Assembly (NCBI GenBank): GCA_030052745.1
Contig: JANBVO010000032.1
Span: forward strand, 1 to 64,000
Length of the DNA stretch: 64,000 nucleotides
DNA from: Pleurostoma richardsiae
Taxonomy: Eukaryota > Ascomycota > Sordariomycetes > Calosphaeriales > Pleurostomataceae
Direction: 5' to 3'
In this document: positions 12,878 to 38,594 of the stretch, piece after piece
How positions within the stretch are numbered: position 1 is the first letter of the stretch
Layout of the letters: each line of letters begins with the position of its first letter
Program-made: the position numbers and the translations under genes
Notes under the pieces: generated by a model
Told to the model about the DNA's origin: nothing
What the model saw: the letters and a program-made list of their open reading frames with translations, nothing else
The model's database searches: none

Positions 12878-14614
12878 TCAAGTCAGGATAAAGGATTCAC
12901 GACTCCTCATCATTTCCCTTGTGTTAACCCTCTTCATTGTCATCTCTTGGATCGCCACGACATCTCCAATGAATCGATGGGCCCCTCTCAAGTGCCTACC
13001 CAGGATACTCATCTTCTCAAACCTCTCAATGATCCATGCACGATCGAGCGGATTATCCGTTTCGAGTGCTGCAATAAAGAGTGGCCATGCGATCCTCGTC
13101 AACCCGTCTTCTCCCCGGTATCTAAATGTCTGGAACGCGAGGTTCATGATCTCCTTTAACAGGAAGCGTTGTACTTTCCCCTGCCCCAGCGGCGAGTCTG
13201 GCTCTGTAATACGCAGAAATTCGAGTTGGATCGCGTAGAAAATAGGCACGATGTTCCGGATATTCGCTACGAGTCGGTTGTTGCTATCCGTTTCAATGGA
13301 AAGTTCGCGCGCGACCTCGAGTATCTCAGCGAAAGCAGACCGAGTTTTTTGTATAGCTTTAGCCACGCTGGCTACGCGCTTGTGGAATTCGTGGGGCGTG
13401 ATGTCGTTGGTAGCAGCAAGTTGGGCGACCATGAAGCGGAGGGGACTGCAGCAAGTGATGAGGTTGAAGACACTACGGTTCTCGAGGTCATCAAGCAGTT
13501 CGGTCTGTGGGTAAGCCTCACCCCAAGCGAGCCGGTAAAGCGGATTGGAGTACCGATGCATGCGCATGAAAGCGTCAATTGGGGATACCGGGGAAGAGAT
13601 GGTTGTAGACAATTCAGGAGTCAGGATCGAGTCCGCTGGATCATCATCTTCACACCGCGCGGCTTCAGACAACACGATTATCAATGACCTGTTGAAGTGA
13701 CCGCCAGTGCCTGAAGATGCCGCTGCTGAATCAATATAGGCGATCCAGACTAACATCCTGACCGAATAGAGCGACAGCGGCAAGGGGCAATTCGCATCCC
13801 GTCCGGGTCTTCTTGTTAAGGCGCAGACTCGAGGCTCTTCTGAGTTCATAATTGGAATTCGGATGAGGGGCTTTAATCTGTGTTGAACAAGCGATGCTGC
13901 CCCCTTGAGATGATTTGAGGTTCCTTGACAGTCCCCAAACTGTTGCTCAAACAGCATCATCAACCATAGCGTCGTCAACAAGACATCTAAGTCTTGCGTC
14001 AGGTCTTCCTTCCCGACGACTTCAGCGAGAAGGCGTAAGGCGGCTGAGTAATGATACGTTGGTTTCCGGCTCGGCTCTACTGGCTGAAAAGGACGTCTCG
14101 TGTCCATCTCCCGGAAACCTAGAGCAAGTGCCATGTGCATGATCATGGGTTCTTCTCGTGCGAGGTCGAACATGATGGAGATGCAACCGTAGCTCGGGTG
14201 TTTGGTGTGATGAAACTCGGCAAACGCTGTGCGGAAAAAGCGAATGGCATCATGGTCTTCTGCAGCCATAGGAAGTGAACAGGCCGCTTCGCTGGGTCTC
14301 GAAATAGTGATAGCTAAAGGCGATGTCAAGTCGGGCTGGGATGTTGCCAGTGACATAACCCTGATCTTCTTCGGCCTCGGGTTATAATCGCAGAACAGTC
14401 CAAGTCGAACACAGCGTCCGCAAACTGGCCGTTGCTCGTCGCAGCGCTTCTTTGCTGCTCTACTGCGACAGGTCCAGCAACCTTTCCGAGACCTGGGGGC
14501 ACTGCGACCTCGGCAGACACCGGCCGGTGAAGGGAGTGAATATTCAACATCTGGGCCAGCGGACATCTTGGATGGATCGGACTCGCAACTGATTCTGTGC
14601 TTGGCGACGGACAT
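12878..14614 (-). CDS. Zn2Cys6-like transcription factor (third), unusual cluster spacing
   Basis: A single open frame of 578 residues from the ATG at 14612-14614; a longer frame upstream lacks ATG. The zinc cluster is at C46, C49, C58, C65, C68, C75. The second loop is eight residues (R-S-R-A-A-K-K-R) instead of the usual six, because of two extra alanines encoded by GCAGCA. The rest resembles the Fungal_trans_2 regulators (RLLAEVVG, LLTTLWLMMLFEQQFG). It is the outermost gene of a set with a GH3 glycosidase, an ACS permease and an M20 amidohydrolase. Its own promoter carries the same paired CGGCTAT sites, so autoregulation is plausible. The DNA-binding role is inferred. Confidence 0.85.
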   Translation of the reverse strand: MSVAKHRISCESDPSKMSAGPDVEYSLPSPAGVCRGRSAPRSRKGCWTCRSRAAKKRCDEQRPVCGRCVRLGLFCDYNPRPKKIRVMSLATSQPDLTSPLAITISRPSEAACSLPMAAEDHDAIRFFRTAFAEFHHTKHPSYGCISIMFDLAREEPMIMHMALALGFREMDTRRPFQPVEPSRKPTYHYSAALRLLAEVVGKEDLTQDLDVLLTTLWLMMLFEQQFGDCQGTSNHLKGAASLVQHRLKPLIRIPIMNSEEPRVCALTRRPGRDANCPLPLSLYSVRMLVWIAYIDSAAASSGTGGHFNRSLIIVLSEAARCEDDDPADSILTPELSTTISSPVSPIDAFMRMHRYSNPLYRLAWGEAYPQTELLDDLENRSVFNLITCCSPLRFMVAQLAATNDITPHEFHKRVASVAKAIQKTRSAFAEILEVARELSIETDSNNRLVANIRNIVPIFYAIQLEFLRITEPDSPLGQGKVQRFLLKEIMNLAFQTFRYRGEDGLTRIAWPLFIAALETDNPLDRAWIIERFEKMSILGRHLRGAHRFIGDVVAIQEMTMKRVNTREMMRSRESFILT

Positions 14615-14954
14615 GAATCCGGGTGATTGTATCACGTTAGTCCTCTATGTGTCACCGCATGTGTTTGCCGATGTCGGCTATCGGCTATCAGCAAGGTGAA
14701 ATTATATCAGCCCGAGACTAGCCAAAAGGTTAATGGACCAGACGGTGCGGGATAGCGCATCATTCGTGACCATGCTACGCGCTAAAGTTGAGATAAGACC
14801 TAGGGTACTAGCGGCATGAATTTAACTGCATGGAGACACGTAAGACCGTACGAGGTAGGATATACGACATCGGGGAAAACGCAAGTTCTCTAGTGCAAAG
14901 GAAATACAATTGCAACCTGTGGCAAGTTGACCATACAACCTCTTAAGAAGAGGT
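14615..14954. other. Promoter of the third regulator
   Basis: About 340 bp between the GH3 stop codon and the regulator start, both on the minus strand. It contains the CGGCTAT direct repeat at 14675-14688 and no gene. Confidence 0.5.
14675..14688. promoter_or_regulatory. Paired CGGCTAT half-sites, upstream of the third regulator
   Basis: Two back-to-back CGGCTAT units (14675-14681 and 14682-14688) put two CGG triplets four bases apart, a layout used by Zn2Cys6 dimers on direct repeats. The site is 61 bp upstream of the ATG of the third regulator. Confidence 0.5.
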
Positions 14955-16902
14955 TTACTTATATCGTAAACCGAAGCCAAATGGAAAAAGTGGCTTCTCA
15001 GAGTCAAATGCCATGTCCTCGCGGCTCCTCGTAACAGCATCCATTGACCTCGGCAGATCAAATGGAAGCTTTCCCTGTGGTAGATTGTCGCCAACACCAA
15101 AGCACACGTCTAGGAAGGCCTCGTCGTCACCACCAAAGTTGACCATCAACGCAGTGTCATGTCGGGATGCGTCCTCTCCATTCCAAGCCTCCCCTCGGAC
15201 ACCCAGTCGCTCCTGAGCCTCTACTAGAGGGGTCAGGACAGCAGGCCGGTCAAGATAAACATCTATCACCGTGACAGGTACTTTTTCGATGATCTGAACT
15301 ATTCTTGACACCTCTTCAGTGGGAAATTCCAGGTGCCCCCCATGAAACTTGGATTCAAAGCCTCCCGGTCGGCAGTCGTATGGCGCTTTGAGCCGTAACA
15401 ATGCAACGTCCGCCTCCGAAGGTGAGGACACCAGCGTCATCCCTCTTTTTGTTGCAGCATCATTGGATAAGAGGCCTTCAACGTAGAACTTGGTCACTAG
15501 CGCAACTGCTTGTTGCATGGGGACAGTGTTGTTTCCATTCGCCAGGATCGTGAAAGCCCGGCGCTGTGTGGCCCGCCCGAGCTCTATGAATTGCTGGTTC
15601 CCCACGATGGTGGCAGCCTCGTCGGCGTCAACGAAGCGCCGGTCGTCAAATAGACCCAGCATAAACTTTTCAGTTAGAATGCGTCTGACAGACTCATTGA
15701 TGCGACCTTCGGAAATAAGTCCCTCCTGAACTGCCTGAATTACCAGCTCGGGCCTCGACTCGCCGCCAAATTGGTCACAGCCAGCTTCAAGGATCTTCAC
15801 GACGCGTTCGAGTTCGCTGAGGTGTTCACAGCCCCACGCACGAGCTGGCATGTCTTGTCCCAGAAGAACTGTATCGGTAATCAGGCCCCAGTCTGTGCAG
15901 ATGACGCCTGGAAAGCCGAGTTGTTTGCGGAGTATCCCGGTTATGATATTTTTATTGAATGCCATCCCAACTTCTTCAAAGTTCGACCCCACTGGCATTC
16001 CATAAGCCGGCTAAGAGATCTGTTAGCATGGCTCGATCACATTGGTCTCTCTTTCGGTGACAGGGATTGCAGAGTCTTACCATGATTTGTCTCGTTCCGG
16101 CCTTCAGAGCCTCCCGGAATGGCTCTAGATGATAGTCGAAATTGTCTCCGGGATATACCTGTTCTCTTCCGTAGGTAAAGTGTGGATCCTCGCCGTCTTT
16201 CCGAGGCCCAGCGCCAGGAAAATGCTTCGTCATCGTCGACACGCTGAATCTCCCGTTCTGTCCCCTTAACCCGGGCTGTAGCAGCCTGCCCTGCATACCC
16301 TCAATGTATGCGGCCACAAGCCGCGCAGCCAGCTTTGCGTCCTCGCTGAATGTCGACTGGACCCTCGCCCAGCGATACTCCGTCGCCAAATCCGCCTGTG
16401 GATGCAGCGCGACGCGGAGGCCGACAGCGATGTATTCTCTTCTCACACAGTCACCAAACACCCTCGCCAAGTCGGGGTCACGCAGCGCCCCAAATCCCCA
16501 CGTTTCGGGCCATTGACTTAGGGCGCCAGCTTTAAACCCCGTTCCCACGTTGGAATTGAAGTGATGGCGAGGATCTGATGACAGCGTGACGGGTATTCCC
16601 AGCCGTGTATGTGCCAGTACATGCTGCTGTATGGTGTTGTGCCACATCGCGACGAGTTTGGGATCAGTGATCGGACCAATTAGATTGAAATGTGACATGT
16701 GCTTGGCTTCGAGCATTTCAACGGTGTCGAGTATGGCCATTTCAGGAACTGGACCAGCTAACGAGCCGTCGGGCCCGGGACGGATCATGTTGTGGAAGAG
16801 AAGCCCAGACTTTTCCTCCAGCGTCATCCGTGAGAGGAGGTCGGAGACGCGCTCCTCTGTAGGCAATGACGAAACTTGGTAGGGGTATCGTCCTCCGGAC
16901 AT
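14955..16902 (-). CDS. Glycoside hydrolase family 3 enzyme, probably intracellular
   Basis: Cleaves beta-linked sugars (beta-glucosidase, xylosidase or exo-glucanase type; specificity not visible). Exons 16902-16081 and 16010-14955 close in frame to 625 residues; the intron is GTAAGA..CTTAG. The N-terminal barrel shows SDPRHH (109-114) and KHFPGAGP (usually GGG), and the nucleophile Asp is in C-T-D-W-G (D314, rebuilt downstream of MPAYGMPVG). A C-terminal sandwich follows, and the chain ends in LFPFGFGLRYK without a fibronectin-III domain. There is no signal peptide, so it likely acts on an imported glycoside. It lies beside an ACS permease and an M20 amidohydrolase, and its promoter carries paired CGGCT sites at 17061-17076. 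Confidence 0.88.
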
Positions 16903-17381
16903 GTTGATGATAGGATTGGAATCTTTAGGTTCTGGTGAATCTTACAGTAGGTGTAGTTCGCTAAGCGGTGCCTGTCTTTGTTCAGAGAATCAGGAAGATG
17001 AAGCTCTGGGTGCACGTGTGGTTTCAATCCTTGTTCAAATCCCACGTAGCTAATAGCTAGCGGCTCTGTCGGCTATCTCCCTCCCCTACTTTAGCAGTAC
17101 CCACATCCTCGTATGACTTGCCAGTAGCGTTCGCATCAATCTCGGGCACTAGTCGCGTATCATCGTGATGAATGAATTATTTAGTGCGCAGCTCAGTACT
17201 CGCCCAGGTACATCTATCCCTTGCGGGGTGGTACTCGAACCGTACCTGTTGCTAGCACAATGTGACCAGTTTGCTACAAACGCGGATACAACTGATGTTA
17301 AACTGCTTTCCAAGTCTCTTCTGGGGGCCCATGCTTGGAGACTGCTCTCAGTCGCCGCCCTCGAAAGGGAGCGAGAATTGT
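16903..17381. other. Intergenic, GH3 promoter
   Basis: About 480 bp between the GH3 start and the 3' end of the permease, both on the minus strand. It includes CACGTG at about 17014 and the paired CGGCT sites at 17061-17076. No gene seen. Confidence 0.5.
17061..17076. promoter_or_regulatory. Paired CGGCT half-sites, upstream of GH3
   Basis: CGGCTCT at 17061 and CGGCTAT at 17070 in direct orientation, six bases between the CGG triplets, 159 bp upstream of the GH3 start. It is an imperfect version of the sites at 14675 and 19441. Confidence 0.4.
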
Positions 17382-19222
17382 TTACATGACATAGCGGAAC
17401 TGAGGCAGTTCTAGGTCTGTCTTGTCTGACAAGCTCAGGGCAACATCCACCTCATCCGAATTCGCGTCTACAATGCCGAGCTCCCGATCTCGCCGGCTGT
17501 TCTGCCAGGTCAGGTAAACGCGAAGTATTGCGGTCGCGATGACGGAGACACAGAGACAAACGAGACAAGCCTTGAAACCACTCGGATATGTCGGCGACTC
17601 ATTCTCCATGAAGAATTGGGGAGAAGCAATGTTCGCAGCGCAGTAACCTACGAAGAGCTATTTTCATCTGACGTCAGCTGCTGGAACAAGAATGTGATGA
17701 GGATTGCGCGAGAGTATGCTTACAGCAGCGTTGACGGTCGCCTTCTTGGTGAATCCAGCAAAATTAGCTGTTGACATGGCGAAGATCATTGGGAAGTTGC
17801 CAGAGAATGCGATGCAGAGGCAATAGCCAAAGAAGCGGGCCCAGAGGCGCGAAGCGTCGATCTGGTTAACCATGACCGCGCCGATGACCCCCACGGTGTA
17901 GTTGAGCATCATAAAATATGTGCGCGAGTTCTTGATGTAGGTACTGCCGACTGTTGCGATGATGACGAAGAGAGCCTGGAATGCGGTCGAGATCATTTGG
18001 ATCAGGTACGTATGCACTGTTGAGAAGCCGAAGCCTTTGATGATGATCGATTGAAACTGTGAGCGACGACCGGGATTAGCTGGGTACTAATTATTTTTTA
18101 CAGAATCCACGGGAAGAAACGTACACTAGCCAGTCCGTTTGCCAAAGAAGAGGACACCATGATCAAGAATAGAAGCCACATCTTCGGGTCTAGAAAGCCT
18201 TCTAAGAGTTGGTACATCTTGAAGTTGTCATCTTTGATGCTTGTCATGTTAATCGCAACACGGATGATAGCCTTTTGCCTCTGCTCGGGATTGAGGAACC
18301 GTGCGGTGCTCGGATGGTCGGGTAGTAGATACGTGAGACTCAGACCCCAAACTGCGGTGACGCCTCCGAAGAGGATGAAGAGGACCTGTTAAAGACATCT
18401 CACGTTAGATCTTGTTCACCTAAGGGGCAGAAAGGCGGCACACAACTGCCTCACCTGCCAGGGTTTAATGCTGCCATCGATAAAGCTGATGGCATAGGCG
18501 AGAAGCGAAGAAAAAAAGCCAGCGATCACATTGCCCATGAACCACACCCCGTGTCTCAAGGGTTGCTCTGACTTCTTATACCACATCGAGACCAGTAGGG
18601 CCAGGCTCGGCGCAATCGCAGACTCAGCTGCACCCAGAAAGAAGCGAGCCGCAAGCAAGCCCCCAGAGTTAAAGGCACCAGCGGTGCACAGCAGTACCAC
18701 GCCCCAAATGGTGCTTTGAGTTTAACAGTCAGTTATTGCTCTTCCCCGTCCCCAGCCAGCCGGCTCTAGAAAGGACAAGAGAAAGTACCCACCAAGCACC
18801 AGCAATGATTTTACCAATGGGAAGTCTGACAATAAGGTACGACGCGGGATACGAGAATGCCAAGTAGCCAAAATAGTAGATACTACTGGCCCACGAGTAA
18901 TCATCGCCAGTTAGATCAAGGTCTGTCCGCAGACCCATGATACTAGAGAAGCTGAGGGCCGACTTGTCGAGTGTCTGGAATAGATATGAGAATAGCATGA
19001 CAGGTACAAGGCTTTGACGCAATCAGTCATGATATTCAAACAGACGACCAGGTAGTAGATGATGACCACGTACTATAGATCAATTCTGAACAGGAGAGCT
19101 CGGTCCTCAGTTAAGGAGAGGGCTGGAACAGTTGTGACATCTCCGAAGTCCTTTTCGGCAGAGTCTAGAACGTCCTGATTAGCTGTCCTTTGAGCGACTC
19201 CGTAATCCTTTTCTTCGCTCAT
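17382..19222 (-). CDS. MFS permease, anion:cation symporter (Dal5/allantoate-like)
   Basis: Plasma-membrane importer of a small organic anion. Six exons (19222-19074, 19011-18793, 18713-18455, 18385-18125, 18056-17724, 17657-17382) close in frame to 498 residues with about 12 membrane segments. Family marks include LDKSALSFSS after the first segment, ARFFLGAAESAIAP, FIIIKGFGFST-like text (seen as IIIKGFGFST) and an acidic cytosolic tail. The start is the ATG at 19220-19222; its leader holds a C8A9 homopolymer junction. It is divergent from the M20 amidohydrolase, with which it shares the CGGCTAT-rich region at 19441-19465. Next to GH3 and M20 enzymes it probably brings in the conjugate they cut. 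Confidence 0.9.
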
Positions 19223-19765
19223 TGTGTCGTGTTGCAAGTTGATTTTTTTTTGGGGGGGGAATCTGTTAGATTCCCAGAATGATGAAGACAGCCGGCTGCT
19301 AAATGGTTTCACCTTTTCTGACTGTCCGTAGTGGGTGACCTTGATATACCCATTGCCTGACCCTTGTGGTTGTGAGAGAGTAACCTCCTGCTGATGTCGC
19401 CTGAGGTGTTCGAACCCGGAAAGCGGACCACGTAGATAGTCGGCTAGCGGCTATCTGAATAGCCGCTTATCTTAAGCGTATCATCTCCCACATGGTTATG
19501 TTGCCCATATTTGGTGTTTCCTCATCAGGTAGGTATTTGGCCTTGAGTCATTAATTCCGATGACGGAGGCCCACTTAATACTAACGAGATCGTAGTGGAT
19601 GCCTCGGTGTTGAGGCAGGAGTTGCACGCCTGGATGAAGGAGCCACATTCATTTGCTCTCTGCGCGCTGCTTCGCGGTTTCTACAAGATCCAGCGCCTGT
19701 CAGAGTCAGAATGGAATTCTCCCGGTTTCTCTCTACCCTGCATACTAGTCAGAACCAACAATACT
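19223..19765. promoter_or_regulatory. Shared promoter of permease and M20 amidohydrolase
   Basis: A 540-bp divergent region. It holds a T9G8 run (19243-19259) in the permease leader and the strongest CGGCTAT site group of the window (19441-19465). No gene inside. Confidence 0.6.
19441..19465. promoter_or_regulatory. CGGCTA direct and inverted repeat, divergent promoter
   Basis: CGGCTAG (19441-19447) is followed directly by CGGCTAT (19448-19454), four bases, then ATAGCCG (19459-19465). The last two are a perfect 7-bp inverted repeat, CGGCTAT-N4-ATAGCCG. The group is 219 bp upstream of the permease start and about 300 bp upstream of the M20 start, so it could serve both. Confidence 0.55.
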
Positions 19766-21201
19766 ATGACGGCAATACCACTCTTGGAGACGAGCAGCGA
19801 TAACCCGGCCTATACAGTGGAGGGCAAGCCCGACAATGGTTTGGAAAAGAAAGCCAGGGAGATCGTTGCATCAACAGTTGAGCGCCTGGAGCAGGATCTT
19901 TTCGCCTTGAACCGCGCAATACATTTACACCCTGAGACCTGTTACGAAGAGATCTTTGCCCACGCAACACTGACCGATTTCCTTGAGACCCAGGGCTTCC
20001 ACACTCAGCGACACGCCTACGGTCTCGATACTTCATTTTCGGCAGAGTGTGGATTAGGGGGTCGGCTCGTCATTTTCTGCGCGGAGTACGATGCTCTCCC
20101 GGGTATTGGCCACGGCTGCGGCCACAATCTCATTGCCACTGCATCGGTTGCAGCTTTCGTGAGCGCCGCGACAGCCTTGATGGCTGCCGGGGTTGCCGGA
20201 CGCGTTCGAATCCTTGGAACACCCGCAGAAGAAGGAGGTGGTGGGAAAGTGAAGTTAATCCAAGCCGGTGCTTTCTCCGAGGACGTGTCGGCTGCTATTA
20301 TGTGCCACGCGCTACCACTTCATCAGATTAAGGCTGGATGGAGCGGAACAGCAGGATTCCGAACAATGGCATCTCGCCGGTTTCACGTCGAGTTCCACGG
20401 TAGGAATGCCCATGCCGGATCGCAACCGTGGGGCGGCATTAATGCGTTGGACGCAGCCGTCGGGGCTTATTCAGCAGTCTCTATGCTTCGACAACATATC
20501 CGGCCTTTTGAAAGAATCCAAGGCATCATCGAAGATGGAGGCCAGGTTCCAAACGTCATCCCTGACTACTCGAGGATGGCCTGGGGTTTGAGGAGTTCGT
20601 CGGTCAGGGAGGTTGACGCTCTATATGAACGGGTAAAAAGCTGCATGGACGGCGCTGCTACTGCAAGTGGATGCACCGTTCAGTTCACCCCGTAAGCTTT
20701 CTCTTCATTCTACTATCGGCAAATATTTAACTGACTTGAAGCCAAGGATGGCACCGTACATGGAGCTTCGAGTGAACCATACGCTGTGCAAAGAGTATAT
20801 CAGTGAGATGGAGCTTATGGGAGAGAAAATCCTACTCCAAGATGACGAGCCGTCATGCGCAGGAACCGATATGGGTGAGTAACCCTGCTACACAATCATT
20901 CCAGCGCGTACTAGTAACTGACAATGTCATGGAAGGTAACGTTTCCCACATTGTTCCTGGTTTCCATGGAATCTTTGGTATTCCCACACCCCTTGGCGTA
21001 CCCGTCCACCACCGGAGCTTCGCCGATGCTGCTGCAACTACCCAGGCTCATGACGCTACTCTCAGGTCTGCTAAAGCGATGGCTATGCTAGCATTCAAAG
21101 TCTTGACGAACTTGGAAACTGCGGCTAATATAAACTTCGATTTCGTCCAGGGACAGAACCCTGAGCTCGAAGTTGCTGTTTTCGACTCTTTTATAGACTA
21201 G
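19766..21201 (+). CDS. M20-family amidohydrolase (ACY1L2/PM20D2-like)
   Basis: Zinc-dependent hydrolase that removes an acyl or amino-acid group through an amide bond. Exons 19766-20691, 20747-20874 and 20936-21201 close in frame to 439 residues. The metal and catalytic motifs are all present: HPETCYEE, DALPGIGHGCGHN, the catalytic Glu in GTPAEEGGGG, MCHALP, and the dimer-lid segment GRNAHAGSQPWGGINALDA. A longer open frame starts at 19595, but MTAIPLLE is the first ATG that fits relatives. There is no signal peptide. It is divergent from the permease. Some family members cut amino-acid conjugates such as those of plant hormones; that this one does so is inference. Confidence 0.88.
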
Positions 21202-24255: not shown

Positions 24256-24777
24256 TCAGAGAAGGTGTTTGTATACGCCGATGGCTTCATCGAACTCATC
24301 ATCTATCTGGCCTGCCAGCGCCTGAGCTGCAGCTACAAGTTCCGCCGGCACTTTGCTAGCTACAACAGCACTGAACTTATCCGTAGCGTCCTTCTCCAGC
24401 TCCAGATTTAGCAAGGTGACCGGGCTCAGTAACAAGTGGTCGAACTTTGGTTTGGCAGCGATAATTGTGGTGAGAGTCAAGTTCACATCCTGGATCAGAG
24501 CTTGTGTTGCGACCGCCACGTTGACAGTCTCGATGAGTGACAGGTTTGCAGAAGACTTTGCGATGTCGGTTGCCTTGTTGATGTCTTTAAGGAGGGTTGC
24601 TGACTCTGTAACAATTGGTAAAGCTCCTAGGAGTCCACCATCCCAGGTGATGACAGTATTGTTCAAGGCTGCCGTGTCCACGGCTATGACACTGAGGGCA
24701 GACACAATCGCAGCACCGTCAGCTAGGGCAACTGGGATAATGAATATGACAGCCGAAAAGAGAGTTGTGGCGAGCAT
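24256..24777 (-). CDS. Secreted HsbA-like (hydrophobic surface-binding) protein
   Basis: 173 residues, one exon. There is a clear signal peptide (residues 1-19, hydrophobic core then ALADG). The mature part is helical and rich in Ala, Leu and Val with repeated Asn-x-Thr/Ser sites, as in the HsbA / cell-wall galactomannoprotein family. These small proteins coat hydrophobic surfaces and can recruit lytic enzymes. No GPI signal is visible at the C-terminus. The ATG is at 24775-24777. An array of three CCGGGG/GCGGGG boxes lies about 430-470 bp upstream. Confidence 0.8.
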   Translation of the reverse strand: MLATTLFSAVIFIIPVALADGAAIVSALSVIAVDTAALNNTVITWDGGLLGALPIVTESATLLKDINKATDIAKSSANLSLIETVNVAVATQALIQDVNLTLTTIIAAKPKFDHLLLSPVTLLNLELEKDATDKFSAVVASKVPAELVAAAQALAGQIDDEFDEAIGVYKHLL

Positions 24778-25583
24778 CGTGGAAAGATCCTTTTAAGATA
24801 AATCTAAAACCTTGTCAGATTTAAGTGTGATATTAGACGGGTTCGACTACAAAAACATAAGAGCCTAGTAAATTGCAATCGGAATCATTTCAGCCCAACA
24901 AGGACGATAATTTCAAGCTTATCTTTATACCCTGACTCCTTTCCCATGAATGAAGTCTTTCACAAGACTCGGTTAGTTGCTCAGGCTCTGACATCTGACT
25001 ATCTTACCCCGCAGGCAACACCCCGAAAGTGGCTGATTTTCATCAATAGTTGAGATATATGCCTCCAACTGCTCCGGAAGGATGCGAAGGTCAGCCGCTA
25101 AGCAAGGGAATATTACCGGTATATGGCGTTAGTGCAGGAGCAACTTGTCAATATAGGCAGCACGTTGTCGATCGCTGCAAACTTTGACTAATTCATATGC
25201 AAGTCCGGGGTGCCGGGATACGAGTGCGGGGATGAGAGTCCGGGGAAGAATCCCTGCTTACCGCGGCTCCGAGGTGATTCATTGACATGCAGACCGGCAC
25301 TGGAAGGAAGACATGTGAAACGCGCGGGCCAACAGAGCTCAAGGCAGCGGGAAAGGACGGAAGGGAAACGTGACGGTGTCACTCCAGTCATAGAGAGTTA
25401 AGATACTGCTTGAAGAACAATGGAACAATTCTCAGCCCTTACAATGTACACGGATCTCATTACAAGCAAGTCTTGTCATTTCAAAAACATCCTCTCAGAC
25501 AGAGGTGAAGGACGGAAAAACCTTTTGAATATCCACCTGCGTGTCTGCCGGAGGGAGGCCATTCTGGTCACCTTGAATCATGT
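24778..25583. promoter_or_regulatory. HsbA-like gene upstream region with GC boxes
   Basis: About 800 bp. Three boxes fit the carbon-repressor consensus SYGGRG: CCGGGG at 25205, GCGGGG at 25226 and CCGGGG at 25240, with AGTCCGGGG present twice (25202 and 25237). No gene seen. Confidence 0.4.
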
Positions 25584-31488: not shown

Positions 31489-32220
31489 GGCTACAGGTCA
31501 AAAAGTATCGAAGTCTTTGGGCGCTACGCTGGGGGCTGTCACCCTAGATGATGGCTGATGGCGCTTCGGAAGGTGGAGTCGATTCAAGAAACGCCGTGAC
31601 ACCACCTCACATCCCTGGCAACCGCACGTGGCTCAGCCCCTGCGCCACAGACTTGCCAGCAAGGCAGCCTGAACCAATCAGGACAACTGTATGTGGGTCG
31701 CTATCCCTGCATTGACCGCCTGTTTGAAAGTGACAGGAGGACTCCCGTGACAAGAGTGCCTTTGCAGTAAAAATCAGAAGAGCTGTCCGGGTCTAGCCGC
31801 TTCACTCATGCTCATTGTATTGTATGAAGTCAGAAGCCCAGGCTGAATTTGGAAAGCCTTCTTTGGCCAGGTCTCTCTGATTGGACATCTTGCGGAGGTG
31901 CAAGGTGGGAAAGGCTCTCTAGCATCGTGAAAGCCCCCAGCACTCCAACTATAATAACCACGGCTATATGGCTGCGCCCCTACAGAACCGATGCCTAGCA
32001 TTTTACTCGAGAACAGTGTAGGGGAATCACTGGCAGAAAAGATTATTAAAGAGGGTCAAAGAAGAAGATAGCCGAGCACAGTAGGGCACCGAGAGATGCG
32101 TTTAAGGATTACTATGTTTAGAGGCCCAGGCGTGCTATTTCTACCCCAATCTGAGGGACTTGTCCGGCGCTGTGTCTTCGCGAGCAGGAGACTGTTCGAT
32201 CAAGTGGTTCTCACAATCAC
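31489..32220. other. Intergenic
   Basis: About 730 bp between the peptidase start and the dioxygenase 3' end. A CACGTG lies at about 31625. No gene recognised. Confidence 0.5.
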
Positions 32221-34409: not shown

Positions 34410-36112
34410 ATGGGCAAAAGCAGCGAAGTCGTTCGTTCGACGTCAACTCCGTCCGTCAACGACGGTGAGATGCTCCATGTCGCTGAGGAGAAACACCGCG
34501 ACACAGACATCGCCCTGGACTTCGTTGAGCGCCATGAGGGCTTCACGTACACGTCTGAACAGGAAAGAGCTGTCGTTCGCAAGATAGATGTCTGGTTGAT
34601 GCCTTTGGTACGCTTGCATTCTTTCTCGGTATGCCTCACGCGGCTCTTAACAGGACTTCAGATGTTTGCCTCGTACTGTCTCCAGTACATGGACAAGAGT
34701 GTCATGGCCCAGGCTGCCATCTATGACTTGGTCTCGGATCTCAAGCTTGTCGGTCAAGACTACTCTTGGTGCTCGTAAGTGACCAAGGCTAGGTTCTTTG
34801 TCAGTTAGCCCATAGCTTATTCTGCTATAACACAGGTCTCTATTCTACTTTGGATATCTCTGCGCACAGCCGGTTGCCGCATACTTCTTGACTTATTTCC
34901 CAGTGGGCAAATTCGTCACCGCAACGTCTCTCTTGTGGGCAATTGTCCTGTTTGCGACGGCTGGATGCACCAACTTTGCTACCTTGGCAGTTGCTCGGTT
35001 CTTCTTGGGCGTAGCCGAGGCGGGTGTGTCACCGGCATACGTCTTGATAACCGGGACGTGGTACACTAAAGATGAGATCCCGTTCAGAATGGGGATTTGG
35101 TTTTGCGGCAATGGACTTGCCATCATCATACAGTCCGTCATCGCTTATGGCATCGGTCACATTTCGGATACATCCATCCCCGTGTGGAAGTGGTTCTTCA
35201 TCATCTTTGGGGTGATTGGGCTCGCCTGGGCCGTTGTGCTGTACTTCTTCATGCCGGACACGATCCTTACCGCCAGGTTTCTCAGCGAAGATGAAAAAGT
35301 CATTGCTGTCGAGAGGATTCGCCGCAACCGAACTGGAGTTGCCAATCCCAAGTTCAAGCGCAACCAGTGCATCGAGGCACTGACGGACATTAAAGTATGG
35401 TGGGCTTTCTTCTATACCATCGTCTGGATGATTCCTATGACCGCTGTAGCATCATTTGGGTCGCTGGTCATAAAAGGGTTTGGGTTCGGAACTTTCGAGA
35501 GTTCGCTGTTGAACATGCCGTTGGGGGCCACGGAAATCATCGGCCTCTTGGGCGCGGGCTACGTTGCTCAGCGTTTCCCAAACACCAGGCTTCTCATGCA
35601 AGTGGTGTGCAATACGCCTGCCCTCATCGGGGCAGCCTTGATCAACTCATTGCCCCAGAGCAATCACGTTGGAAGACTCGTGTCGTTCCACATTACCAAC
35701 TTCGCTAACGGCACTCTCACCATGCTCTGGGCTGTGACGAACTCCAACATCGCTGGGCATACAAAGAGAACAACCAGTAACGCCATTCTGTTTGTTGGAT
35801 ACTCAGGTAAGTTCCTTGCGTTCAGTCCCTTTGAGCTGAATGCTAACATCAGCAACAGCTGGGTTCATCATCGGGCCCCAGTTCTTCCTCGGCCGCGAAG
35901 CTCCTTATTACCCGACTGGGTTCAGGACAATGCTCGTCTGTTTTGCTCTTGCTACGGTACTCCCTGCGTTCTACTGGCTTTACCTGACTTGGGAGAATCG
36001 CCGCAAGGCTGCGAAGCTGGCTGCCAGCGGCGACGAAGTCGTCCAAGTCCGTAATGAAGAGTTTCTCGACCTGACCGACAAGGAGCAGCTGCGTTTCGTC
36101 TATATTAAGTAA
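34410..36112 (+). CDS. MFS permease, anion:cation symporter (second)
   Basis: Plasma-membrane importer of the Dal5/allantoate permease group. Exons 34410-34607, 34662-34774, 34836-35806 and 35859-36112 close in frame to 511 residues with about 12 membrane segments. Marks include LQYMDKSVMAQAA, SLFYFGYLCAQPVAAYF, ARFFLGVAEAGVSPAY, LVIKGFGFGTFESSLLNMP and NIAGHTKRTTSNA. The start MGKSSEVV is the first ATG before a hydrophilic 60-residue N-terminus. It shares a divergent promoter with the TauD-type dioxygenase and runs towards a convergent regulator, so it probably imports the dioxygenase substrate. Confidence 0.9.
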
Positions 36113-36406
36113 CACAGGCTAGTAAAGCACACGGCTATAGACTGGATGGGATATAACTGCTGCTTGCACAGTAAATCTGTGCCTTAGCGCCTTGATCCGC
36201 GAAGGTGGAATAGAGACCTGGTTTTTGTATCGTATTTTACTTTAATTGAGCCTTCTTTCAGACCGTGAACGTCGACTGCTGACTCCTTCAATAAATCCGA
36301 GATCCAATGTTTACCCTACTAATTAATATGAAGGGATAGAGGAATACGATGTCAGTTAGAAGGACGAAGGGGCAGTCCCATTGTGCGTTGACTGCTGCTA
36401 CTCGCT

Positions 36407-38110
36407 TTAAAAGAGACAAAAGTCTCGACTTCTCTCTAAGGTTACAATAACAGAAGTGGCATTGTCGTTCCATGTCTCCCGCTCTAGTCGATTCTCGTCA
36501 ATAACCCGCCATATATCCTCAAGGAGCGCCATCTGCGAGTCGCGGATTCTGGCAGGGTAGACTTGCTTCAGCATATTATTCCGCTCTCTCACCCAAGCGC
36601 GATGGTCGGTGGTGACCGCCTCTCTTGATGAGATGTAAAACGGAAAGGGGAGAGACGAGTCCGGTCCACAGCCCGGTGGCATGCTCTTTATAAGGCGCAC
36701 CAGATCCTCCACCGTCTGCTGGACCCTCCATGAACCAGGCGAGTCTCGATAGATGAGCCGCTGAAGTATCAGATGGGCACTCCAGTAGAAGCACTGACTA
36801 AGATTGTCGAGATGGCGAGTCTTCGTTGGCCTCATGCTGCGCAGGGTAACCTTTGAGCGTGCATAAATACGCATGTCGGTATCAAGGGTAGAGGCGCGTC
36901 TGAGAACATCATAGCGTCCTTCGGCGCCTGGATTCTCGCGAAGGTCGGCGGCCAGATTAGCGAGGCGGGCCAGAAAGCCAAGGACAGGCTGAGGGCAACC
37001 GGTCATCTCTCGAAAGGATGGAATGGTGCGGTCGTATTTGTCCTCGGGGAGAAAAAGCCAGAACGAGACGGGGAGATGTGGTCTCCGGTGTCGCAAGATG
37101 GCTACGGTCACATCCAACATGGCGAAGCGCTGCACCAACAGTCGGGCAACAAACCCTTCGACAGGTTGCTCGATGTAGCCCAGATCCTGGAGGAAGTGCA
37201 TGGCACACGCGAGATGGACATCTACGCCAGAACCGCCGATGAAGACGAGGTTGGCAATCTGCAACAGCACCGCAGCCAGCGTCGCCTGCTTGGGACTAAG
37301 CCCACTCCCGGAATCGTCAAAGGCACTCGTATTATCGCACGATACCAGCGCTTGCCGCAGCGATGCCAAAGCTTTGTCGTGTCTCTGTAGGACAACGTTG
37401 GGGGCGGCGTGACCGTGGCAGTACATATACTCGGTCGCTAAGGAGATGATGGTGTCAAGCAGCACTGGCGATGCAAGAGCGAGTTTGGAGATCCTCCTAT
37501 AGGGGTTGTCGGCGGAGTCGTATGCTGGGAGCACTCCAGAAAGGTGATTGAACCAGTACGCAAAGGCAATCCGCTCCCCTGGGGAGCCGAAAACCTCGGG
37601 TGACAGTTCGAGATGCTCCAGTATGTCGTCATCGACGAGCTCCCACGTCCCTTGTAGCTCATCGGACGCGCCATCTCCATCACATTCCTCCTCAGTATGC
37701 GCTAGAGGCGAGTGTTGATGCTCCCGCAGCTGCGCCTCCAGCCGCGCCTCCTGCTCTTGGAGCTGGCGAGCGAGCAAAGCCGCATTGCTGATGAAAGAAC
37801 CACTCGTCGGCACCTGGTAAAGACGAACGTCTGAGGGCTCCGCATCTTCCTGCTCTGCACGTCTCTGGGTTCCGGCATTGACCGCGGGAGCGCCTCGAGC
37901 GCGACTCTTGCGGGCGGCGGGTCTGGCGTCGGCAGTGGCCTGCTTACTTCGTCTGGTATCGACCCAGCGAACCTGCGAGCTGGAGTATTCGCAATGCAGA
38001 TCCCGCGTACTACACCCTCGGCATCTAGGGCGCTCCTCACTGCACTTCCGCCGTCTTTTCTTGCAGTTGGCGCATCCATTGCGTGAGCGCACCTCTCCCG
38101 CCTCAGGCAT
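36407..38110 (-). CDS. Zn2Cys6 fungal transcription factor (fourth)
   Basis: 567 residues, one exon. The zinc cluster at C13, C16, C23, C30, C33, C40 has canonical spacing, preceded by a short N-terminus. It is followed by a basic linker (RRSKQATADARPAARKSRARG), a coiled-coil-like Gln/Glu stretch (LLARQLQEQEARLEAQLREHQ) and a Fungal_trans_2-like C-terminus (FAYWFNHLSGVLPAYD). The start is the ATG at 38108-38110; the open frame extends upstream without ATG. It is convergent with the permease and lies next to the dioxygenase pair, so it is a reasonable pathway regulator, though it also shares a promoter region with the aminotransferase gene. Confidence 0.9.
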   Translation of the reverse strand: MPEAGEVRSRNGCANCKKRRRKCSEERPRCRGCSTRDLHCEYSSSQVRWVDTRRSKQATADARPAARKSRARGAPAVNAGTQRRAEQEDAEPSDVRLYQVPTSGSFISNAALLARQLQEQEARLEAQLREHQHSPLAHTEEECDGDGASDELQGTWELVDDDILEHLELSPEVFGSPGERIAFAYWFNHLSGVLPAYDSADNPYRRISKLALASPVLLDTIISLATEYMYCHGHAAPNVVLQRHDKALASLRQALVSCDNTSAFDDSGSGLSPKQATLAAVLLQIANLVFIGGSGVDVHLACAMHFLQDLGYIEQPVEGFVARLLVQRFAMLDVTVAILRHRRPHLPVSFWLFLPEDKYDRTIPSFREMTGCPQPVLGFLARLANLAADLRENPGAEGRYDVLRRASTLDTDMRIYARSKVTLRSMRPTKTRHLDNLSQCFYWSAHLILQRLIYRDSPGSWRVQQTVEDLVRLIKSMPPGCGPDSSLPFPFYISSREAVTTDHRAWVRERNNMLKQVYPARIRDSQMALLEDIWRVIDENRLERETWNDNATSVIVTLERSRDFCLF

Positions 38111-38594
38111 GGTGAATCGCTGCGCAGGAGTAATACGGCGCTTGTAATGCTCAATAAGGGAAAGGGGAAACGAACCATGAGTGTTTCGCAAAGGGGGAGG
38201 ACCACGAATTCATAGCCCAATTGTGGAGTTAATCGCGCTATTGACAATCCGCTATCTTTTTAGCACAACTAGGATCTCTCGGCGGCGCAGATAAGGACTC
38301 CGATTCTTCTTCGGACGGGCCCGGCGTTTCGACTTGCCTATCTGGGTTTCGGCCATCCGCCGTTCTATCTCTCCCGAAGCCACGTTCCCTGTCTTCCCCG
38401 TGGAGACTCCCTGCGCGGACTGTCAGTACATAGTAGCTTCAGCATGGACAAAATCATGTGCTGCAAACACGTCCACAGCTTGTACTTGCGGCTTCCCTTA
38501 GAGGCGCTTGATGACTTAAGTGCTTGTCGTGCAAGGTCCCTCCCATAAACTGAGCTGAGTTGCTGAAAGCGTCCTCGCCGCGGAATTGCGAACA
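38111..38594. promoter_or_regulatory. Divergent promoter of regulator and aminotransferase
   Basis: About 480 bp between two divergent starts, containing a GC-rich patch (TTCGGACGGGCCCGGCG at about 38311). No gene inside. Confidence 0.4.

Follow-up and report, generated by a model that had tools for sequence, protein, structure and literature searches.

Paired CGGCTAT sites mark a candidate four-gene catabolic regulon in the ascomycete Pleurostoma richardsiae

Four neighbouring genes near the start of a Pleurostoma richardsiae contig encode a Zn2Cys6 regulator, a glycoside hydrolase family 3 (GH3) glycosidase, a major facilitator superfamily (MFS) permease and an M20 amidohydrolase. They raise the question of whether they are controlled together through paired copies of the heptamer CGGCTAT and, if so, by which protein and for which pathway. 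The window analysed covers the opening 64 kb of contig JANBVO010000032.1 (447,649 bp), in a genome totalling 39.4 Mb. Co-regulation of the four genes is well supported, and a cluster-specific regulon is probably real and functional. The reading we favour, and consider fairly probable, is that the four genes form a catabolic module with its own regulon, in which the local Zn2Cys6 regulator would bind the paired CGGCTAT sites and activate all four genes.

The four genes are served by three intergenic regions, the regulator's own promoter among them, and all three bear tight CGGCTAT-type pairs (Table 1). In site 1, CGGCTAT starts at 14675 and again at 14682, and in site 2, CGGCTCT at 17061 is followed by CGGCTAT at 17070, all on the + strand. 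Site 3 consists of CGGCTAG at 19441 (+), CGGCTAT at 19448 (+) and an inverted CGGCTAT at 19459–19465 (−), the last two forming the palindrome CGGCTAT-N4-ATAGCCG (19448–19465); the group is upstream of both start codons, by 219 bp for the permease and about 300 bp for the M20 gene. The CGG triplets are spaced as CGG-N4-CGG in site 1, as CGG-N6-CGG in site 2 and as CGG-N4-CGG plus an inverted triplet in site 3. The original prediction had named each of these half-sites, the palindrome included, together with the distances to the regulator and GH3 starts; every half-site was located exactly where it had been placed, and both distances match the gene models. CGGCTAT is absent from the window between 9424 and 14675 and between 19465 and 24681, and the sites therefore stay out of the flanking genes, which are of the regulator type or encode HET domains.

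It is the pairing rather than the number of half-sites that stands out, because the relaxed form CGGCT(A/C)(T/G) shows no enrichment in the window (37 copies vs 34.8 expected) and exact CGGCTAT is only about twofold in excess (13 vs 6.7 expected, a count reached by one of 100 shuffles; five of the 13 lie at the cluster). When all 7-mers were tested, a pair being defined by a second copy starting 7–18 bp off on either strand with at most one mismatch, CGGCTAT alone formed pairs in each of the three intergenic regions, and none of 2,327 dinucleotide shuffles yielded any word paired in all three. Since real DNA differs from shuffled DNA, triples of stretches matched in length to the three regions were also drawn elsewhere in the same genome, from pools that mix coding and non-coding DNA rather than promoters alone. 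The first pool (138,292 bases) comprised the remainder of the window plus 28 of 44 own-genome loci, each trimmed of a short segment surrounding the pattern match by which it was retrieved; it left out L001, L004, L013 and L014, which cover the cluster, and L033–L044, which came from protein matches. Any paired word was found in 350 of 105,244 triples and a CGG-type word in 79. In the second test, with three non-overlapping draws and L055–L059 added (pool 186,597 bases), a paired word was found in 179 of 118,354 triples (CGG-type in 44), and the match quality observed at the cluster, at most one mismatch in total, was reached in three triples, none with a CGG-type word.

Genome-wide, in counts that are lower bounds for repeats, the pattern CGGCTN{2,4}CGGCTAT occurs 15 times (24 for the backwards-pattern control), and three of the 15 lie at the cluster, 2.4–4.8 kb apart. 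The reversed half-site order, CGGCTATN{0,2}CGGCT, occurs 16 times, once at the cluster (control 26), and two exact copies of CGGCTAT with N0–8 between them occur three times, once at the cluster (control 6). The pairs are not over-represented genome-wide relative to these controls, and therefore their clustering at one locus is the unusual feature. Pooling both orders gives 30 distinct pairs. By our own arithmetic, the probability that two of the 29 pairs other than site 1 would lie no more than 5 kb from it is about 3 in 100,000. Among the remaining 12 matches to CGGCTN{2,4}CGGCTAT, seven lie in open frames of at least 167 amino acids (aa) and five in shorter frames. The earlier proposal that the shared paired site is confined to the four-gene stretch is supported; equal frequency of paired sites in unrelated promoters was tested approximately, by the mixed coding and non-coding triples and the genome-wide patterns, and the regulon was not refuted. 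That doubled sites occur only here held roughly: an overlapping CGGCTCGGCTCT pair lies at 14067–14078 within the regulator coding sequence, and the single copies at 31961 and 32068, in opposite orientations, are loosely spaced, 107 bp apart. The perfect N4 palindrome occurs once in the genome, but looser inverted CGGCTAT pairs (N0–12) are present at 18 places (against 47 per strand for the control), so that the inverted form alone is unremarkable and this part of the earlier case is weakened.

Table 1. Genes and paired sites of the cluster, in window coordinates
Feature	Position	Strand	Description
Zn2Cys6 regulator	12878..14614	-	578 aa, one exon; Zn_clus and Fungal_trans_2; gene model and Pfam
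Paired site 1	14675..14688	+	CGGCTAT-CGGCTAT tandem, 61 bp before regulator ATG (14614)
GH3 glycosidase	14955..16902	-	625 aa, one intron; exons 16902-16081, 16010-14955
Paired site 2	17061..17076	+	CGGCTCT-GT-CGGCTAT, 159 bp before GH3 ATG (16902)
MFS permease	17382..19222	-	498 aa, six exons; gene model and PF07690; TC (Transporter Classification) 2.A.1.14-like; ATG at 19222
Paired site 3	19441..19465		CGGCTAG-CGGCTAT direct pair and inverted CGGCTAT; divergent permease/M20 promoter
M20 amidohydrolase	19766..21201	+	439 aa; exons 19766-20691, 20747-20874, 20936-21201; ATG at 19766

The family assignments of the four gene models come from Pfam, NCBIfam and PDB sequence matches. The regulator passes the cut-offs of both PF00172 (Zn_clus, 32.5 vs 21 bits) and PF11951 (Fungal_trans_2, 54.7 vs 21 bits). 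The GH3 enzyme matches the N-terminal domain PF00933 at 137 bits (E 1.1e-39), the C-terminal domain PF01915 scoring under its cut-off (23.8 vs 31 bits). Its nearest solved relative, the beta-glucosidase 9ul7, matches over the whole length at 519 bits with the catalytic-site motifs SSDPRH, KHFPG and TDWG aligned; another GH3 enzyme, SN243 (7qe1), matches in parts only. The permease matches PF07690 at 111.8 bits, and its best NCBIfam model is TIGR00893 ('2A0114'; TC 2.A.1.14 is the anion:cation symporter family of the MFS) at 186.9 bits, which is below the curated cut-off of 395. The M20 enzyme scores 199.5 bits with TIGR01891, over the cut-off of 153.75, and its nearest PDB relatives are an Xaa-Arg dipeptidase (7yh4, PM20D2) and HmrA (3ram). 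The whole M20 domain aligns with both, including the metal-site motifs GHGCGHN and TPAEEGGGGK. No signal peptide is apparent on inspection of the GH3 or the M20 enzyme. These matches and the gene models bear out the identities first assigned to the cluster, namely a Zn2Cys6 regulator, an intracellular GH3 glycosidase, a permease and an M20 enzyme.

A plausible mechanism is that the Zn2Cys6 protein binds paired CGGCTAT half-sites in the promoters of its own gene and the GH3 gene and in the one shared by the permease and M20 genes, most of these half-sites being arranged as a direct repeat (CGG-N4-CGG or CGG-N6-CGG). It would thereby regulate itself and, when the substrate is present, switch on all four genes by activation and not by repression. 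The permease would import a small amide-containing and probably anionic compound, dipeptide-like or an N-acyl amino acid, and in the cytosol its amide bond would be cut by the M20 enzyme and its beta-glycosidic bond by the GH3 enzyme. Uptake and hydrolysis of a compound of this kind are suggested by the type of the permease and by the subfamily and PDB relatives of the M20 enzyme. Regulator binding, autoregulation, activation, co-expression, substrate class and the order of steps are what we infer from these data. The interpretation given in the original prediction is partly supported in that its shared site, confinement and gene identities stand, the pathway itself being an inferred one.

Other CGGCTAT copies in the window were considered and rejected as regulon sites. 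The copy at 24681 lies inside a 178-aa open frame (24256–24792) and that at 36132 between a converging permease frame and another regulator, both without a tight pair; those at 31961 and 32068, each single and likewise without a tight pair, precede by about 475 and 580 bp the start, placed by eye, of an alpha/beta-hydrolase gene. A loosely spaced series of half-sites at 31793–32074, CGGCTAG (−), CGGCTAT (+) and CGGCTAT (−), precedes this hydrolase gene by about 300–600 bp, and the gene carries a TAP-like domain. A further Zn2Cys6 regulator, also carrying Fungal_trans_2, is encoded at 36407–38209 (−); the gene lying end to end with it encodes an MFS permease (34831–36054, +) that is 36% identical to the cluster permease.

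The trio of regulator, M20 enzyme and permease is found twice in the genome. Among the paralogs of the cluster regulator (57 of 57 candidates scored, 33 matches listed), the top one lies at C115:364719–365384 (contig C115), with 63 bits over residues 41–241, and the next best reaches 33 bits. It sits between an M20 paralog (C115:362986–363750) and a permease paralog (C115:367375–368175), and the surrounding locus (L057, C115:359500–369400) reads M20 (−), Zn2Cys6 regulator (+, 520 aa) and permease (+). With its exons joined by eye, the C115 regulator aligns nearly end to end with that of the cluster (25% over 531 columns, 105 bits, E 2e-28, in a single comparison). Judged by homology and gene order, this paralogous unit independently supports the existence of a regulatory unit. 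Consistently, five of eight M20 paralogs, merged from 16 segments of which one is a short partial match, lie less than 6 kb from one of at least 73 permease-family loci (86 of 240 candidates were scored; binomial P about 7e-7). Because this permease list is incomplete, the chance level is higher, perhaps fifty-fold by our estimate, and still small. Besides C115, four further M20 paralogs (L055, L056, L058 and L059) lie about 1–5 kb from a permease paralog of the same family. None of the five M20–permease loci elsewhere contains CGGCTN{2,4}CGGCT. L055 was rejected as a sharer of the site, its four CGGCTAT copies lying, by eye, in or just before the apparent coding region of another transporter.

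The zinc cluster of the regulator, read directly from the DNA (14390–14479, −), is CX2CX8CX6CX2CX6C. Its first loop departs from the canonical CX2CX6C in that the second and third zinc cysteines are separated by eight residues, and its alignment with GAL4, LAC9 and the C115 paralog contains a two-residue gap. The loop that holds this insertion contacts DNA in GAL4-type proteins, and this atypical cluster, should it prove to bind, would be informative about the variation that such a loop can tolerate. In Aspergillus nidulans, Zn2Cys6 proteins are mostly of the form CX2CX6CX5-6CX2CX6C (PMC6078315). A regulator encoded elsewhere, for example an activator of the XlnR/Xyr1 type or one concerned with nitrogen or carbon, might be proposed as the protein that binds the sites and co-regulates the genes, the local Zn2Cys6 protein being a target; we consider this unlikely, though worth weighing. 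The core consensus of XlnR/Xyr1 is GGCTAA or GGC(A/T)3. GGCTAT fits the second of these forms, and the atypical zinc cluster likewise speaks for another binder, but GGCTAA does not occur on either strand of the three intergenic regions, and of the seven occurrences of GGC(A/T)3 there, five are the CGGCTAT sites themselves. Moreover, the concentration of pairs at one locus suits a local regulator more than a global one, and in the C115 unit, too, the M20 and permease genes flank a related regulator. An XlnR/Xyr1-type site was rejected on its own because the promoters lack GGCTAA, and it is kept only as part of this alternative.

The GH3 gene raises a separate question. In a bacterial scan that detects close relatives only, its product is 49–55% identical to proteins of Plantibacter (four of seven loci) and other Actinomycetota, whereas its other matches in its own genome reach at most 33% identity, and lateral transfer from actinobacteria is possible on this comparison. 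There is no GH3 match on contig C115, and so the GH3 gene may be a later addition to an older core of regulator, M20 enzyme and permease. Both observations would also suit an arrangement in which there is no single pathway, the regulator, M20 enzyme and permease forming a dipeptide-type uptake unit and the GH3 gene being unrelated to it and probably acquired laterally. Against such an arrangement, the GH3 gene is located between the regulator and permease genes and has a paired site of its own, and we think it improbable to about the same degree as a binder encoded elsewhere. Doubtful to a similar extent is the most far-reaching form of the favoured reading, in which the regulator, its DNA-contacting zinc-cluster loop lengthened by two residues, would read an extended 7-base half-site, CGGCTAT, in a tight direct repeat and control a fungal pathway, not described otherwise, for the import and stripping of a compound bearing an amide and a beta-glycoside, with a glycosidase derived from plant-associated actinobacteria.

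Several observations weigh against control of the four genes by the local regulator in one pathway. The two-residue insertion in the zinc-cluster loop could change specificity, or impair or abolish DNA binding. The order of half-sites with the exact one first places just one of 16 pairs at the cluster, as against three of 15 with the looser one first, and the form of the pattern was to this extent picked post hoc. A second regulator match beyond the zinc cluster exists at C62:208639, although weak (22 bits, residues 51–243). The C115 unit lacks a CGGCTAT pair, and its two intergenic regions have just one paired word in common, the GC-rich CCCCGCG, with mismatches; the lack of the pair would be expected if regulator and sites had changed together, which is no proof that they did. 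In a tree of eight M20 enzymes, those of C63 and C115 are not resolved as sisters, and support is weak in parts of a nine-permease tree; the two units may accordingly be of old origin or have been put together separately. Among 20 bacterial open reading frames (ORFs) neighbouring the GH3 relatives (four of seven loci) there is neither an M20 nor a permease gene, and these neighbourhoods have no partner genes in common, five of the 20 ORFs having no Pfam match and possibly being wrong frames. By contrast, the idea that regulator, M20 enzyme and permease make the genes a unit while the CGGCTAT pairs are chance or neutral leftovers of short tandem duplication is very improbable, since, although the relaxed half-site is not enriched, the pairs do not exceed their genome-wide controls and the looser pairing was reached in the 350 triples of the first test with many triples to be had in a 64-kb window, the observed match quality recurs in just three of the second set of triples, three of the 15 genome-wide pairs fall inside 4.8 kb, and the differing spacings (0, 2 and 0 bp) and the additional inverted copy do not look like one duplicated element.

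Judged from literature listings, neither a published cluster of GH3, M20, permease and Zn2Cys6 genes nor a description of 9UL7 was found, and among the listed matches mentioning CGGCTAT nothing was relevant by title. The FDB1 cluster of Fusarium verticillioides, as far as the available text describes it (PMC4726666), is likewise small and combines a Zn2Cys6 regulator and an MFS transporter with enzymes that hydrolyse amides; it acts on a plant compound. Its families differ, however, in that it has an amidase (PF01425), a metallo-beta-lactamase and a dienelactone hydrolase, and its regulator carries PF04082 instead of the PF11951 found here. The terms glucosidase, glycosyl hydrolase and M20 are absent from the main text of that article, and, on the text available, the Fusarium benzoxazolinone clusters were rejected as the same cluster. 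Dal5p of Saccharomyces cerevisiae is an allantoate/ureidosuccinate permease that also mediates di- and tripeptide use (PMC1342634) and is classified as TC 2.A.1.14.4 (PMC5025739). The cluster permease resembles it as a TC 2.A.1.14-like MFS protein and a plausible importer for the M20 substrate, the match being at family level and below the cut-off; an M20 partner fits such a permease because Dal5p supports di- and tripeptide use.

The association of an M20 gene with a TC 2.A.1.14-like permease gene recurs in this genome, in two cases with a related regulator, and a recurrent unit with a testable regulator–site pair could help to assign substrates in two large and poorly characterised fungal families. 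The kind of regulon proposed is itself already well known, being a common fungal way to organise such genes. AflR exemplifies a cluster-specific, self-regulating Zn2Cys6 regulon. The present cluster, in which binding is predicted, is unlike AflR-type regulons in its half-site, CGGCTAT, which is found mainly as a direct repeat, and in a zinc cluster beginning CX2CX8C; it is like them in having a regulator gene inside the cluster and CGG-containing paired sites both in the promoters of the cluster and in that of the regulator itself.

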